Shown piece by piece: positions 12,758-64,000 of a stretch of 64,000 nt of DNA. Under the pieces are notes generated by a model. The model was given only the letters and a program-made list of their open reading frames with translations, was not told the DNA's origin and ran no database searches. The DNA is taken from NCBI RefSeq assembly GCF_040703125.1, contig NZ_CP160035.1:3458001-3522000 (forward strand), in the 5' to 3' direction. Within the stretch, counting starts at the first letter, position 1, and each line of letters opens with the position of its first letter. Source of the stretch: Flavobacterium ovatum (GTDB taxonomy: Bacteria; Bacteroidota; Bacteroidia; Flavobacteriales; Flavobacteriaceae). The translations under genes were made by a program, and so were the position numbers.

Positions 12758-13396
12758 AATAATTTTGGTTCTATAAAATTTTAAAATAAATAAATAAAAT
12801 TAATTAAATGTAAGATTTTGATTTGTATAGAAGTCTATTAAAATAAAAAATCGGCTATTAAATTCAATTTTAATAGCCCGCTCGTGCACACCTGCTACAT
12901 CACATCATTTTCTAATTTAAAAATATACCAAAACTTGATTTTCTTTGCGGGCACGAGCAAGATGTCTCGTCCTAAAATAAGTTTACATATTTATTCCGTT
13001 ATCGTCATTAGCACCCCAACTCCCCTAACCCTGATGGAAGTGGAAATCATTTTGAAATAAAAGTCCCCATTTCCTGGAGCAAAAAAGCGACTGAAAGAAG
13101 CTCTTTTTGCGACATGGGAAATGGGGACTTTTATGAGAAATATTGTAACGCACAGCAGGAAATAGTTCCTAAAAATGAATATGGTTCTCGATACATTTTT
13201 ATTCCGCTCCGCTTTATAAAAACACTACCATTGACGTTCTATATTAAGCAGCTGATTTGCTAACACTTAAAAACCACACCCCTAACCCCTCTCGAGAGGG
13301 GAATTAGAAGTACAAACATTCAAATAACGTCATTTTATATTGCGTTTTTTGAAAAAAATCATACCTCGAACGGATGAAAATCAGTGGCTCATTTAT
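12758..13396. other. Non-coding gap with interspersed inverted repeats
   Basis: No gene is supported in these 640 bases. They contain a pair of copies of GGCTATTAAA/TTTTAATAGCC near 12853-12877, the long hairpin at 13057-13134, a TTCTCGATACATTTTT block near 13186 that also occurs at 57889, and CCCCTCTCGAGAGGGG near 13286. These look like repeat remnants between two convergent gene groups. Confidence 0.6.
13057..13134. repeat. Long intergenic hairpin
   Basis: An 18-bp perfect outer stem (ATAAAAGTCCCCATTTCC at 13057-13074 with its complement at 13117-13134) encloses a second partial stem, GCAAAAAAGCG against GCTCTTTTTGC. It sits between the convergent GH2 and ferredoxin reductase genes and may stop transcription from both sides or be a miniature mobile repeat. 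Confidence 0.7.
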
Positions 13397-60066: not shown

Positions 60067-60164
60067 TTAGTAGGAGCAGAAATAGTTATTTTCATAATGA
60101 CGTCTGCTCCCGCTATTCGTTGCAATCTCTTGTATTTGCTATCGCGATACAAGAGGATTTTCAC
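60067..60164. repeat. Interspersed repeat with hairpin after the GH2 gene
   Basis: CTCTTGTAT (60127-60135) pairs with ATACAAGAG (60147-60155). The surrounding bases (GCTATTCGTTGC near 60112 and TTTTCACTGCTATCGGGG near 60159) resemble the repeat at 63150-63275. It may serve as a terminator but has no T-run. Confidence 0.6.
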
Positions 60165-60364
60165 TGCTATCGGGGCTAGTTATAGCGTTTTGGTTTTCAT
60201 AATTTCGATTTGCAAAACTGACGAATAAATATAAAATCATTACAATTTTTTATAAGTTAAATTTTATATATTTGAAAATAAATATTGTCTGACGTTTGTC
60301 AGACATATACAACCTAATTTGGGTAATTAAGTCTGATTTTGTCAGCACTATATACTAGTTACCC
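60165..60364 (+). repeat. 200-bp structured repeat, copy 1, upstream of the 60382 gene
   Basis: This copy is nearly colinear with 63268-63468. It contains a -7-like TATATTTG (60267-60274), a perfect hairpin TGTCTGAC/GTCAGACA with a GTTT loop (60286-60305), a second stem CTGA/TCAG around 60333-60345, and it ends with GTTACCC (60358-60364). The gene starts 17 nt later. GGGTAA at 60321 is complementary to the end motif. Confidence 0.82.
60267..60274 (+). promoter_or_regulatory. -7-like box within the 200-bp repeat, copy 1
   Basis: TATATTTG fits TAnnTTTG and is conserved in the second copy (63371-63378). A transcript from here would carry both hairpins of the repeat in its leader before the gene at 60382. 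Confidence 0.45.
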
Positions 60365-60381
60365 AAAAATAAAACCAACCT

Positions 60382-61785
60382 ATGTCAAAACCTGAAATTA
60401 ACGAAGATTTTCTACTATTGTTAATTGACAACAATGGAACAATTGGCACTGATACAATTGATATAGTTAAACATTTCGAAAACGAAAACAAAAAACTTTC
60501 AGAATTATGCGGAACAAATGGAAATGATAATATCGACCAAATTGTGTCATTTATAAGAACAGAATTACAGCCCAAACTGCCTAATAAAACCTTTAAATAT
60601 TGCAAAGATTTAGATAAAGCGTATCAAAGTGTACACGTCAATTTAGAAGGCGGAATTAAAACCTTTTTTGATAGAAGAGATTTAATTTACACCAATAAAA
60701 AACTTACATTAAATGAGAAAAAGGAGTTTGATTTAGATTCAGCTTTTAGAGATTTGAAAAGTGAAATTAAAGAAAGAATTGAGTTGTGGTTTAAAGTATT
60801 TGATATTGAATTTGCTTATGACAAAGCAAAAGCAATACCTAATGTATTGTCTTATTCACACAGAATAAGTGGTTGGTCAAGTCCAGAATATAAAATAACC
60901 GATAACTTAAAGCAGGAAATTAAAACAAATTTTGGGTATGGAAGTGTAAGCTATTTCTTTTTGCTATTTACATTTAAAAATATACAAATAACACCACTTT
61001 CAGAATGGATTGATTATCGCTACTCAAATTTTTCAGAGGTAATAAGATACACGAGAAGTTTTACCTCAAGAATTCCTGTAGTTGATGAAAGAGGTAGATT
61101 AAAGTATTATAAAACAATAATTGAAAACGAATATTGGAATTATGCAATCGCATTTACCCAAAATGCCGCAAATTTATCTTTGACCAATGAAGATGAATTT
61201 GTAGAAAAATATATAATATCTGAATGTGAAAAAATGGTAAATGGACTTCAGACCATTTATGCAGATAGCGAATTTGATTTAATTGACGAAAACCAATTTG
61301 ACATTGAGGACAAAGACACAAATCGTTATCGATTAGATATTAAAGGTTTCGAACTTGTTAGCTTCAAAACCGAAAAAATTATAGGAGCATTAGATTTTAT
61401 TGGGAAGATTATTGAATACAACAAAATAATTCCAACGGACAAATATGTTTCACGAATAAAGGAATTGAACAAACAATTTATTCCTAAAGTCCACAAAGCA
61501 GTAGCAGAAGAAAAAGTAGAGCTACATCAAGCGAAAAACGAATTAGCTAATTTTCTTATTGGACATAATAAATTGGTTGAAAAGGATAAATTTTATAATA
61601 ATGAACGAATAAGGCTAAGAGAGAAATTCAAAGAAACTTATGAAAGTGAACATATCGAATTTATGGCGATTTTCATGAACTCCTTAGATCAATTAGCAAA
61701 ACATAATCATAAAGTTAATTTACACACAGAAAACATTCAAATTTTGATTAACTATATTGAAAAATATAATAACTTTATGGAATAA
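60382..61785 (+). CDS. Protein of unknown function, accessory cassette-like gene
   Basis: I do not recognise this 467-residue family. It has no signal peptide and no convincing membrane segment, so it is probably cytoplasmic. The N-terminal 60 residues could be a small helix-turn-helix-like domain (DNNGTIGTDTIDIVKHFENE). The middle contains an aromatic block (NFGYGSVSYFFLLFTFKNIQ near 200) followed by a WIDYRYSNFSEVIRYTRSF motif, and the last 120 residues are charged helices likely to form a coiled coil. It is bracketed by the 200-bp repeat upstream and a long palindromic element downstream. A defence or stress role is possible because the next gene is AbiJ-like, but this is only association. 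Confidence 0.75.
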   Translation: MSKPEINEDFLLLLIDNNGTIGTDTIDIVKHFENENKKLSELCGTNGNDNIDQIVSFIRTELQPKLPNKTFKYCKDLDKAYQSVHVNLEGGIKTFFDRRDLIYTNKKLTLNEKKEFDLDSAFRDLKSEIKERIELWFKVFDIEFAYDKAKAIPNVLSYSHRISGWSSPEYKITDNLKQEIKTNFGYGSVSYFFLLFTFKNIQITPLSEWIDYRYSNFSEVIRYTRSFTSRIPVVDERGRLKYYKTIIENEYWNYAIAFTQNAANLSLTNEDEFVEKYIISECEKMVNGLQTIYADSEFDLIDENQFDIEDKDTNRYRLDIKGFELVSFKTEKIIGALDFIGKIIEYNKIIPTDKYVSRIKELNKQFIPKVHKAVAEEKVELHQAKNELANFLIGHNKLVEKDKFYNNERIRLREKFKETYESEHIEFMAIFMNSLDQLAKHNHKVNLHTENIQILINYIEKYNNFME

Positions 61786-61793
61786 TAACTGTG

Positions 61794-61990
61794 GGTAACA
61801 ACGTATATAAAAAAATAGCGCGAGTCGTTGCTAACACAATGGTTCGGGCATTTTTAGGAAGTCGCCAAATTTTTAAATTTGACAAATTCCCAAAAATAAA
61901 ATAATTAGTAAAATTTAAAAATTCGGCTTGTGTTTCATCCGAAAATTACCGCCTTTTTACAGCGCTACTTTTATATACAAGACCGTTATC
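61794..61990. repeat. Long two-tiered palindromic element between the accessory genes (attC-like)
   Basis: The end motifs GGTAAC (61794-61799) and GTTATC (61985-61990) are near-complementary. Inside them GTATATAAAA...TAGCGC (61803-61821) pairs with GCGCTACTTTTATATAC (61962-61978). Further in, GCCAAATTTTTAAATTT (61864-61880) pairs with AAATTTAAAAATTCGGC (61911-61927). This box-within-box layout, ending in a GTT-type core 25 nt before the next gene, resembles integron attC sites in plan but not in consensus. No integrase is in the window. Confidence 0.7.
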
Positions 61991-62015
61991 AGCCATTTAA
62001 GAACACGACAAATAT

Positions 62016-62858
62016 ATGAGATTTACGCAAAAACTTGGATTAAGTCCAATTAAGACAGAGTTAGAAAAAACAGGAATGAGTCCTGAACTTAGAAACTCTC
62101 TTTGGACAGTTGTTATAGAAACTATTCTCGAATTTAGGAGCAACGAAAGAGGCTATAATAATTATGGTCAAAGAGAAGCGTATTCAAAACTAGCAGAATA
62201 TTTCAGAGACTTATGGATTGATTTTTTCAAAATGCCAATAGACAATTTATCAATTAGCTATGGTTGCATCTACGGAAACAGCCCTTTCGAATTTGTTAGA
62301 GCGTGGTTCTATAAAGCAACTTGGGGGGAAGTATTTGATTTTATTGAATTTTCATCTTCGTATCATGACTCATTTGCTGAAATTTGCAATAACTTTCTTA
62401 AAAGAGAGCTTTCCGCATTTAGATTTGTAGATGGACAACTTGTTGAAATTAATTCAAAAGAGGAAGTTGTTGAAATTCAAAATGCAATTAGAAACGCTGA
62501 CAAATTTAAATCTGTTAAAACACATATTCAAACCGCACTTGAACTATTATCGGACAGAAAAAATCCAGACTATAGAAACTCAATCAAGGAATCTATTTCC
62601 GCAGTTGAATCCTTAGCGAAAATTATAATTAAAGATGACAAGACAACATTGGGACAGGCATTAAAGGAAATTGAAAAAAAACATCAAATTCCTAATAGCC
62701 TTAAGTCTGCATTTAGTGCTTTGTATGGGTATACTTCAGACGAAGGCGGAATTCGACATAGCTTACTTGAAAATAATGTGAATGTTGGTATGGAGGAAGC
62801 ACGATTTATGTTAATTACTTGTTCTGCGTTTGTGAACTACTTAATGAACAAAATATAA
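62016..62858 (+). CDS. AbiJ-like abortive infection protein
   Basis: This 280-residue protein's N-terminus (FTQKLGLSPIKTELEKTGMS, then PELRNSLWTVVIETIL) matches the AbiJ N-terminal domain type 4. The C-terminal half (about 150-280) looks like a HEPN-type helical domain: IKESISAVESLAKIIIKDDK near 190 and a GIRHSLLEN motif near 248 that resembles the R-x4-6-H-type active site of HEPN RNases. Such AbiJ-NTD plus HEPN proteins are predicted anti-phage effectors that cleave RNA. It is a single-gene system here, preceded by the long palindromic element and followed by interspersed repeats. The function is inferred from family, not shown. Confidence 0.78.
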   Translation: MRFTQKLGLSPIKTELEKTGMSPELRNSLWTVVIETILEFRSNERGYNNYGQREAYSKLAEYFRDLWIDFFKMPIDNLSISYGCIYGNSPFEFVRAWFYKATWGEVFDFIEFSSSYHDSFAEICNNFLKRELSAFRFVDGQLVEINSKEEVVEIQNAIRNADKFKSVKTHIQTALELLSDRKNPDYRNSIKESISAVESLAKIIIKDDKTTLGQALKEIEKKHQIPNSLKSAFSALYGYTSDEGGIRHSLLENNVNVGMEEARFMLITCSAFVNYLMNKI

Positions 62859-62874
62859 ACGTCTGCTAATCGAG

Positions 62875-63267
62875 TAGACGGGCCAGCTCTGCGAAGTGCT
62901 CTAGCAACAACAAAACTTTATGAGAACTGCAGTGCAAATTTCCCCCAGCTCTTCGAAGTGTACCCCGATCTGCGAAGAGTTCTAGCCACAACAAAAACGC
63001 TCTTAGAAACGCTGTGCAAATGTCTCCTGACTTTGCACACACAACAGTAGCAAGTCATCAACTGGAAATAAGAAATTGCCCAAACCGCTCCTTGAGATTC
63101 TTTCAGAAGGACAAGACTGTAGAAATACTTTGCGCGATTACTTTCCCGAAAAACGGGACAAGCTATTCGTTGCCATCATGCAGTTCGTTCAAATACTTTG
63201 CGAAGCTCCGGGCTTCCTTTGTGTATAGCTGTGAAATAACGCTTAGACGTACAAAAAAGGATACTTG
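62875..63267. repeat. Cluster of interspersed and tandem-like repeats
   Basis: Two degenerate units each contain TCTGCGAAG, CTCTAG or TTCTAG, ACAACAAAA and GTGCAAAT (62885-62940 and 62970-63022). The covarying hairpin at 63013-63039 follows, then the CCCGAAAAACGGG block near 63143, all shared with 6167-6318. An 89-codon open frame overlaps this and has no protein-like features. No gene is supported between 62859 and 63490. Confidence 0.75.
63013..63039. repeat. Hairpin of interspersed repeat, copy 2
   Basis: TGTGCAAA and TTTGCACA form an 8-bp stem around the loop TGTCTCCTGAC, the same loop as copy 1 at 6167-6193. The one stem pair that differs (G-C to A-T) keeps pairing. Confidence 0.8.
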
Positions 63268-63468
63268 CTGCGATCGGAGCTAATTATAGCGTTATTATTT
63301 TCATAATTATGATTTACAAAATTGACGCATAAATACAAAATCATTTTAATATTTTATAAGTTAAATTTTATATATTTGAGAATAAATAGTGTCTGATCTT
63401 TGTCAGGCATATACAACCTAATTTGGGTAGAAAAGTCTGATTTTGTCAGACCTATATACTAGTTGCCA
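63268..63468 (+). repeat. 200-bp structured repeat, copy 2, upstream of the 63491 gene
   Basis: This copy is colinear with 60165-60364. It has the same TATATTTG box (63371-63378), a first hairpin TGTCTGA/TCAGGCA that keeps pairing through a G-U wobble (63390-63409), a second hairpin GTCTGA/TCAGAC (63435-63451) that is stronger than in copy 1, and it ends with GTTGCCA (63462-63468). The gene starts 22 nt later. Confidence 0.82.
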
Positions 63469-63490
63469 GTAATTTGACAAAAATTGAGAA

Positions 63491-63973
63491 ATGATTGAAC
63501 TGATTTTTATTTTTATTGTATTTGAGATTCTTTTCTTGATACCTTCTTACTTTTTGTATAAGAAATTTTTGAAAAGAAAATCTGGAATAAAAAAATTAAA
63601 ATTTTATTCATTTTTGGCAACACTATTAATGCCAATTATTTGGACAACATTATTTATCGGAATCTGTTACGGAATAATAAATCCAATTTTGAGGTCGAAA
63701 GAATTTAATTCAAAAGACTGGATTGAAAATATTGACTCACGATACAGAATGACTAATGACTTAAAAGAAAACGTACTAATTGGAAAAAACAAAATAGAAG
63801 TACTTAAAATTTTAGGAAAAAATGACGGCGAATGTGGATATAAAACAAGTCCAAATACAATATGTTATCTTATACCTGACCCAGAAAATATTGGAGCTCT
63901 AGACCATTATGAATTAGTTATTCTGTTTAATGAATTTGGAAAAGTTATTAAAGTAACTTCCGAAATGATTTAG
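63491..63973 (+). CDS. Small membrane protein with BamE/SmpA-like C-terminal domain
   Basis: This 160-residue protein has two predicted membrane helices (about 3-23 and 40-65) separated by a basic loop (KKFLKRKSGIKKLKFY). The C-terminal 70 residues (ENVLIGKNKIEVLKILGKND, then YELVILFNEFGKVIKV) resemble the small alpha/beta fold of BamE/SmpA-type domains common in orphan Bacteroidota proteins. There is no known function. It follows the second copy of the 200-bp repeat and is the third gene in the cassette-like stretch. The frame ends in a TAG inside the window, so it is complete. Confidence 0.72.
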   Translation: MIELIFIFIVFEILFLIPSYFLYKKFLKRKSGIKKLKFYSFLATLLMPIIWTTLFIGICYGIINPILRSKEFNSKDWIENIDSRYRMTNDLKENVLIGKNKIEVLKILGKNDGECGYKTSPNTICYLIPDPENIGALDHYELVILFNEFGKVIKVTSEMI

Positions 63974-64000
63974 GAGCCGATTAATATGGATAGGAATAAA

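Follow-up and report, generated by a model that had tools for sequence, protein, structure and literature searches.

A 64,000-nucleotide (nt) stretch of the Flavobacterium ovatum chromosome (NZ_CP160035.1, positions 3,458,001 to 3,522,000; hereafter the window) ends in three accessory genes, each of which opens a short distance behind a similar GTT motif, raising the question of whether a common mechanism placed them there. The motifs GTTACCC (60358), GTTATCA (61985) and GTTGCCA (63462) are present 17, 24 and 22 nt before the open reading frames (ORFs) at 60382-61785, 62016-62858 and 63491-63973, as noted in an initial annotation made from the sequence alone. That annotation proposed a non-canonical gene-cassette system of Bacteroidota with folding boundary sites, and comparative data now support it, namely the pairing of cassette starts with cassette ends, compensatory changes in a predicted stem, and cassette copies that break at |GTT (the bar marks the boundary). 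Based on these sequence comparisons, we estimate a probability of about 0.9 that the window contains two orphan platforms of a Bacteroidota cassette-capture system resembling integrons. Two amendments are required. The three sites had been taken to be of one kind; those at 60358 and 63462 end attI-like capture sites, and only the one at 61985 ends an attC-like site carried by a cassette. The heptamer GTTRYCM is also not a special signal, with 28 copies in the window and five in its last 8 kb, the actual boundary being |GTTR followed by variable bases in 285 well-paired cassettes found elsewhere.

Capture sites and cassette 1 of the window

Capture site 1 (60240..60361, plus strand) comprises a promoter-like motif, TATATATTTG, three stem-loops and the end TATATACTA|GTTA at 60358, and capture site 2 (63344..63465, plus strand) has the end TATATACTA|GTTG at 63462. 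The two sites close the copies of a 213-nt repeat (60151-60363 and 63255-63467, 85% identical), the first of which folds far better than shuffled sequences as RNA (z -5.8). Cassette 1 (60358..61984, plus strand) extends from |GTTACCCA to the next |GTT. Directly behind its gene lies an R''-like box, TGGGTAAC (61792..61799, plus strand), which is the exact 8-nt reverse complement of the cassette start at 60358 (8/8 nt paired), a complementarity absent from the initial annotation. This box opens an attC-like site of a long type (61792..61991, plus strand) with 185 nt between its cores, and the right core, GTTATCA (61985), begins cassette 2. The element (61794-61990) is a long inverted repeat, which as DNA folds only moderately better than shuffled sequences (z -1.75); the fold of this element is not relied upon. 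Similar sequence also occurs in another locus of the window genome (L078) and in one of genome G017 (L144). A second inverted-repeat copy in the same genome (2061491-2061630) stands in the order capture site, gene, inverted repeat, gene, and the start and end of its cassette are exactly complementary over 10 nt. Since 8-nt complements lie 300-2000 nt downstream of 17 of the 433 GTTR sites in the window (10-nt complements at none), the window alone is only suggestive and a wider test was needed.

A search of 100 relatives identified the capture site as a conserved element of ~120 nt with the TATATATTTG motif, stem-loops and a near-fixed end, TATATAC(A/T)AG|TTR, beyond which the sequences differ. 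The motif, which we take to resemble the Bacteroidota -7 element, may serve as a promoter for the first cassettes. A covariance model of the capture site, R1, was trained on 26 copies including both window copies and one beside an integrase gene (see below); these three training copies score 118.8 (site 1), 122.9 (site 2) and 117.2 bits, respectively. R1 matched 12 places in the window genome (E < 0.001), and at E <= 0.01 it gave 458 matches spread over 99 of the 150 genus genomes. A different array style is present in one locus of G017 (L145, 2273-5464), where four same-strand capture sites, preceded by short integrase tails, follow one another at intervals of ~1 kb.

Cassette starts pair with their own ends

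Cassettes extend from |GTTR to the next |GTT and usually contain one main gene on the sense strand, with a hairpin-forming attC-like site at the end. The spacing from AAC core to GTT core is mostly 117-119 nt, compared with 185 nt in the window, and the 5' end of the attC-like site is the reverse complement of the first 9-10 nt of its own cassette. Sites were detected with a second model, R2, built from aligned sites and limited to the part between the AAC and GTT cores, so that the variable boxes play no role in site detection. Partial matches were dropped (5 of 137 in a first set and 9 of 266 in a second, leaving 132 and 257), and a cassette was counted if its site had the AAC core and a GTT core preceded it by no more than 5 kb (120 of 132, 218 of 257 and, in a third set, 51 of 74 sites). 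All attC-like sites of a locus lay on one strand, in 36, 40 and 19 loci of the three sets.

The 5' box of each site was compared with the start of its own cassette at seven variable positions. Six or seven positions paired in 97 of 120 cassettes of the first set, which contains the loci used to train R2, whose members were chosen by complementarity. The same was found for 188 of 218 cassettes from 40 loci outside the training (permuted mean 9.2, maximum 21 in 1000), some of them from genomes that also supplied training loci (e.g. G045, G141 and G030), and for 40 of 51 cassettes from 19 loci of other families or classes (permuted mean 1.8, maximum 7); the loci of the second and third sets had been selected for an R2 or integrase match. 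Matches to the start of the adjacent next cassette were at chance level, averaging 2.86, 2.88 and 2.78 of seven positions. Pairing of the own start with the own end follows the rule of integrons, by which both halves of a site belong to one circular cassette. The first two sets contain 285 well-paired cassettes, of which 172 pair at every one of the seven positions; in at least 83 of the remaining 113 the sole mismatch is at the outermost (10th) base. The R' box fits GTTRRRY, the integron consensus, in 16 of the 285, compared with 24 expected from column frequencies.

The predicted stem has compensatory changes in 16 of 16 pairs, and 92.7% of cells are paired, as opposed to 35-42% with the partner slid by 1-3 columns, the higher percentage being inflated because the aligned sites were chosen partly for stem similarity. 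An A.C combination occupies one position in 32 of 33 sites, a mismatch on the top strand that turns into a G.T wobble on the bottom strand. Of 257 attC-like sites, 153 fold better as the bottom strand and 101 as the top strand, with the reverse seen in gene windows (64 versus 175 of 246). In integrons the strand is set by extra-helical bases, for which the A.C position is a possible counterpart.

Of 284 well-paired cassettes (one larger than 3.5 kb was left out), 224 have a sense main ORF, 49 an antisense one and 11 none, and 43 have a second ORF of at least 80 amino acids (aa). The sense start codon lies a median of 40 nt past the core. A random sample of 120 of 247 cassette proteins matched 58 Pfam families, 48 with one member each, and 41 PADLOC models with one member each, noting that one protein can match several models. 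Cargo includes restriction enzymes, Abi and other candidate defence genes, acetyltransferases and phosphotransferase-like genes.

A Xer-like recombinase adjoins the capture site

A tyrosine recombinase was located on the same chromosome ~656 kb from the window. The intact gene (2861361-2862401, minus strand) encodes 347 aa and lies upstream of a capture site, which overlaps the end of the gene, and a cassette array; its closest named protein matches are from Flavobacterium. With an intact integrase gene at this distance, action in trans on the window copies is possible. R1 begins exactly 12 nt before the end of the integrase match in 17 of 21 integrase loci, and the layout is the same on plasmid NZ_CP041688.1. 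The other four loci (three at 47-58% identity and one N-terminally truncated) have no R1 match, and three of these have attC-like sites downstream. In 17 of the 21 loci the integrase is followed by at least one attC-like site, without exception on its own strand, and three of the four loci without one had less than 1.2 kb of downstream sequence.

The best NCBIfam match of the protein is XerA (NF040815; 217.3 bits, below the cut-off of 220), and its score against the integron integrase family TIGR02249 is 198 bits (cut-off 265). Alignment indicates the absence of 44 columns of IntI1 between the K.KDR and HxLRH motifs, corresponding to the I2/patch III insertion, and residues 182-242 of the IntI4 structure (2a3v) are unmatched. 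Relative to IntI, the protein also has an extra conserved N-terminal domain; its N-terminal 71 residues matched no Pfam family over cut-off and may resemble HARP-type domains, which bind branched DNA. By sequence and by Foldseek, the closest solved structures are XerA and an archaeal Xer, followed by IntI4. Beyond placing XerA and IntI as the closest folds, an AlphaFold model (mean pLDDT 80.8, pTM 0.49) and Foldseek add nothing further. In a phylogenetic tree the integrase is placed outside a clade of 11 chromosomal Xer-type proteins; the deep branches of this tree are unresolved, branches are long, IntI is represented by IntI1-like proteins only, and one row (L321) is probably not a recombinase reading frame. 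Alignment and profile scores together identify the predicted protein as a Xer/XerA-like recombinase with an extra N-terminal domain and without the IntI-specific I2/patch III insertion.

Two further groups of recombinases were noted. A second tyrosine recombinase (2853834-2854670, plus strand, of the window genome; L076:1835-2671) is antisense to the array and lies between two attC-like sites. Longer related recombinases with open frames of 609-610 aa occur in G016 and G023 (contigs C69 and C156; loci L333 and L334), genomes with 19 and 8 attC-like sites, respectively, and no integrase match at E <= 1e-75.

Cassette mobility and array size

Clean boundaries between related genomes at the proposed motifs would be expected of a cassette system, and copies of one cassette do break at |GTT. 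The complete G045 chromosome has a second copy, inside the array, of the cassette that directly follows the capture site (100% identity over 1230 nt), and another cassette is present in three contexts (99.5-100%); the neighbours of these repeated cassettes differ, and identity is lost no more than a few bases from |GTT. The integrase encoded on plasmid NZ_CP041688.1 (Chryseobacterium sp. SNU WT5) is 68% identical and annotated as 'site-specific tyrosine recombinase/integron integrase'. This plasmid carries four copies (99-100% identical) of a gene-poor 176-nt cassette; one copy adjoins the attI-like site, and the other three stand at attC-like cores. The left break is |GTT in all four and the right break |GTT in three, and the four right-hand neighbours are all different. 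A cassette common to G148 and G130 (86% identity) has both ends at cores. Many other alignments of cassettes shared across species run into the preceding attC-like site, as is expected of similar sites, or stop inside the cassette. Taken together, these comparisons indicate movement of single cassettes between attI-like and attC-like sites, as judged from their sequence junctions. With little room for a gene, the 176-nt element (L238:13149-13324 and copies) is possibly a minimal or selfish cassette.

The arrays can be long: G370 has 25 sites spread over ~73 kb behind its integrase, and G045 has 33 in ~38 kb. Draft contigs of relatives (L125, L126, L130-L134, L137 and L138; G168 and G133) end inside or close behind arrays, perhaps because similar attC-like sites break the assembly.

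In the mechanism that we propose, the recombinase would excise cassettes as circles, which would then be inserted at attI-like or attC-like sites with the junction at G|TT. The attC-like partner would be used as a folded strand, probably the bottom one, each cassette carrying its own attC-like site, selected to fold. The putative promoter of the capture site would drive the first cassettes, and the enzyme encoded far from the window could serve its copies in trans.

Distribution across the Bacteroidota

The genome set included one genome per species, and genome counts for R1, R2 and the integrase are based on limited scored candidates per genome and stricter filters. R2 matched 132 of 150 genomes of the genus (E <= 0.001) and 109 of 296 genomes of the phylum, representing 63 of 139 genera (E <= 1e-4). 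The integrase was found in 80 of the 296 phylum genomes (E <= 1e-60). Integrase and attC-like site occurred together in 58 of the 296, with an odds ratio of 8.5, or 7.8 outside the own genus, not corrected for relatedness.

Alternative explanations

A number of observations weigh against an integron-like system with platforms in the window. No integrase is present beside the window copies, no attC-like end was found behind the AbiJ-like gene of cassette 2, and the end of cassette 3 has one mismatch and is apparently truncated. R2, a 126-position model, does not match the 185-nt site of the window. Pairing fell below six of seven positions in 23 of 120, 30 of 218 and 11 of 51 cassettes, and the plasmid gave 1 of 5 in the simple pairing test before its gene-poor cassette was recognised; one of the four right junctions of that cassette is ATT rather than GTT. 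The strand preference of the attC-like sites is weak. Among site-bearing phylum genomes, 51 of 109 have no integrase at E <= 1e-60, and 22 of 80 integrase-bearing genomes are without sites at the threshold applied. The fetched loci contain 68 capture sites; a near-full-length integrase lies upstream of 22 and is missing from the other 46, a proportion that is not a rate because ~20 loci were chosen for their integrase. Twelve of the 46 retain only the C-terminal 23-47 residues and 34 have nothing detectable, a pattern for which we have no explanation from the integron model. The suggestion that orphan capture sites as a whole are decayed platforms is only partly supported, given an integrase tail in 12 of 68 and none in 34 of 68.

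The alternative that survives best concerns the window only and is compatible with the cassette-capture reading: the system is real elsewhere and the window copy, as the equivalent of integrase-less clusters, is a dead relic that no longer recombines, to which we assign slightly less than an even chance. The missing integrase and the lack of intact end sites in cassettes 2 and 3 favour a relic, as does the upstream part common to capture sites 1 and 2, which has no recognisable integrase and is joined to Flavo-1 sequence. Against this, both window capture sites match R1 as well as the integrase-side copy does, all three being training copies, and the end of cassette 1 complements its own start without a mismatch.

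A canonical integron, in which a true IntI encoded elsewhere handles ordinary attC sites and the Xer-like gene is a bystander, is very improbable. The layout and the attI end (ACAAG|TTA..) are very integron-like, and IntI integrons are recorded for some Bacteroidota (a complete one in Salinibacter ruber M1, PMC9024848; phylum named in PMC9668308). However, the 60 genomes searched (that of the window and those of relatives) yielded no recombinase above the TIGR02249 cut-off, none of the matches listed covers profile positions 191-230, the Xer-like gene lies at a fixed distance from the capture site in most of its loci (17/21), and the R' box is GTTRRRY less often than expected. An IntI acting in trans was rejected as a candidate on the same absence in 60 genomes.

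Structured leader RNAs or repeats, like Flavo-1, that stand before accessory genes and move only by homologous recombination between repeats would account for multicopy sites, the first of which folds well as RNA, but have very little probability given that a cassette start is complementary to the distant end of the same cassette rather than to the start of the next one alongside, that 17 of 21 loci have a tyrosine recombinase at a fixed place next to the capture site, and that identical cassettes with different neighbours break at |GTT.

Comparison with known systems

Integron-like capture as proposed here shares much of its anatomy with IntI integrons (class 1 and Vibrio chromosomal). As far as PMC2727003 and general background describe them, the latter also have an attI-like site that carries a promoter-like motif and adjoins the recombinase gene, one-gene cassettes with a folding attC-like site, a cassette start complementary to its own R'', a boundary at G|TT, and long one-strand arrays as well as integrase-less clusters. 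The attC-like sites are within the 57-142 nt quoted for attC (PMC2727003), except for the long type of the window (~200 nt). In contrast to IntI integrons, the recombinase described here is without I2/patch III (44 columns) and has the additional N-terminal domain, R' is GTTR plus variable bases with 9-10 nt of complementarity and not GTTRRRY, and there are many orphan attI-like copies per genome (12 in the window genome at E < 0.001). The integrase gene is also in the same direction as its array, which is not the usual integron order. Like CALIN clusters (attC arrays without an integrase), the window and many other loci hold arrays or single cassettes with no adjacent integrase; unlike them, the clusters can begin with attI-like copies, and their sites have a sequence and structure pattern of their own. 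XerA, XerC and XerD are the closest in kind to the enzyme, with XerA its best family match and XerA and archaeal Xer its nearest solved relatives, but this recombinase adjoins cassette arrays.

The enzyme may belong to the 'Integron-like' subgroup of tyrosine recombinases of PMC8138268, the available sections of which describe the insertion as essential for integron function and make no mention of cassette arrays for insertion-less members. PMC7790495 and PMC9668308 regard I2 as necessary for integrons and unique to IntI, and PMC7790495 presents the I2 helix as the probable step from double- to single-strand recombination, its deletion abolishing IntI1. Among the matches listed from open-licence PubMed Central full text (subscription journals and preprints being outside it), we found no such Flavobacterium system and no integron with an I2-less integrase. 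The recombinase-capture unit probably works like an integron and is outside the strict IntI definition because the IntI insertion is absent and R' is not GTTRRRY. As the recombinase is without a piece described as essential, gene capture may have been solved a second way. We lean towards a phylum-wide Bacteroidota integron that would recombine folded single-stranded sites without I2, being either a second invention, with the N-terminal domain perhaps replacing I2, or a survivor from before I2. If it had a second independent origin, the system would be more than a variant of the integron. With a large natural group that has the integron layout and lacks I2, the origin of integrons becomes directly testable, and the breadth of the system is apparent from its varied cassette cargo and the copy on plasmid NZ_CP041688.1.

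Genes and other features of the window

The three genes belong to unrelated families, as initially stated. The gene of cassette 1 (60382..61785, plus strand, 467 aa) was assigned to no family in Pfam and PADLOC scans. The visible part of cassette 2 (61985..62858, plus strand) consists of |GTTATCA and a candidate defence gene (62016..62858, plus strand, 280 aa) classified as AbiJ_NTD4 (5.9e-23) and PADLOC PDC-S32. Cassette 3 (63462..64000, plus strand) opens with |GTTGCCA and runs past the window edge; its gene (63491..63973, plus strand, 160 aa) has an N-terminal part that is hydrophobic by eye and, like that of cassette 1, no Pfam family over cut-off. The end of cassette 3 is outside the window, where TACTGGTAAC at 64005-64014 (L075:2006-2015) has one mismatch to the complement of the start and is followed by what appears by eye to be the left half of a truncated attC-like site.

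A Flavo-1 RNA (Rfam RF01705; 60102..60181, minus strand) was identified just 5' of capture site 1 with 68 bits against a gathering score of 42, and is probably not part of the cassette system. It was the only family over its gathering score in an Rfam scan of the window and five array loci, with none at cassette sites. Further Flavo-1 copies are located at 13023-13166 of the window (plus strand) and at L076:12293-12374. Flavo-1-type sequence is joined to the upstream part of both window capture sites, and the first 29 nt of the repeat query are the Flavo-1 part, which recurs many times in relatives. Short repeats (CTCTGCGAAG...) occupy 62883-63020, between cassette 2 and capture site 2, and similar-looking sequence is present behind cassette 3.

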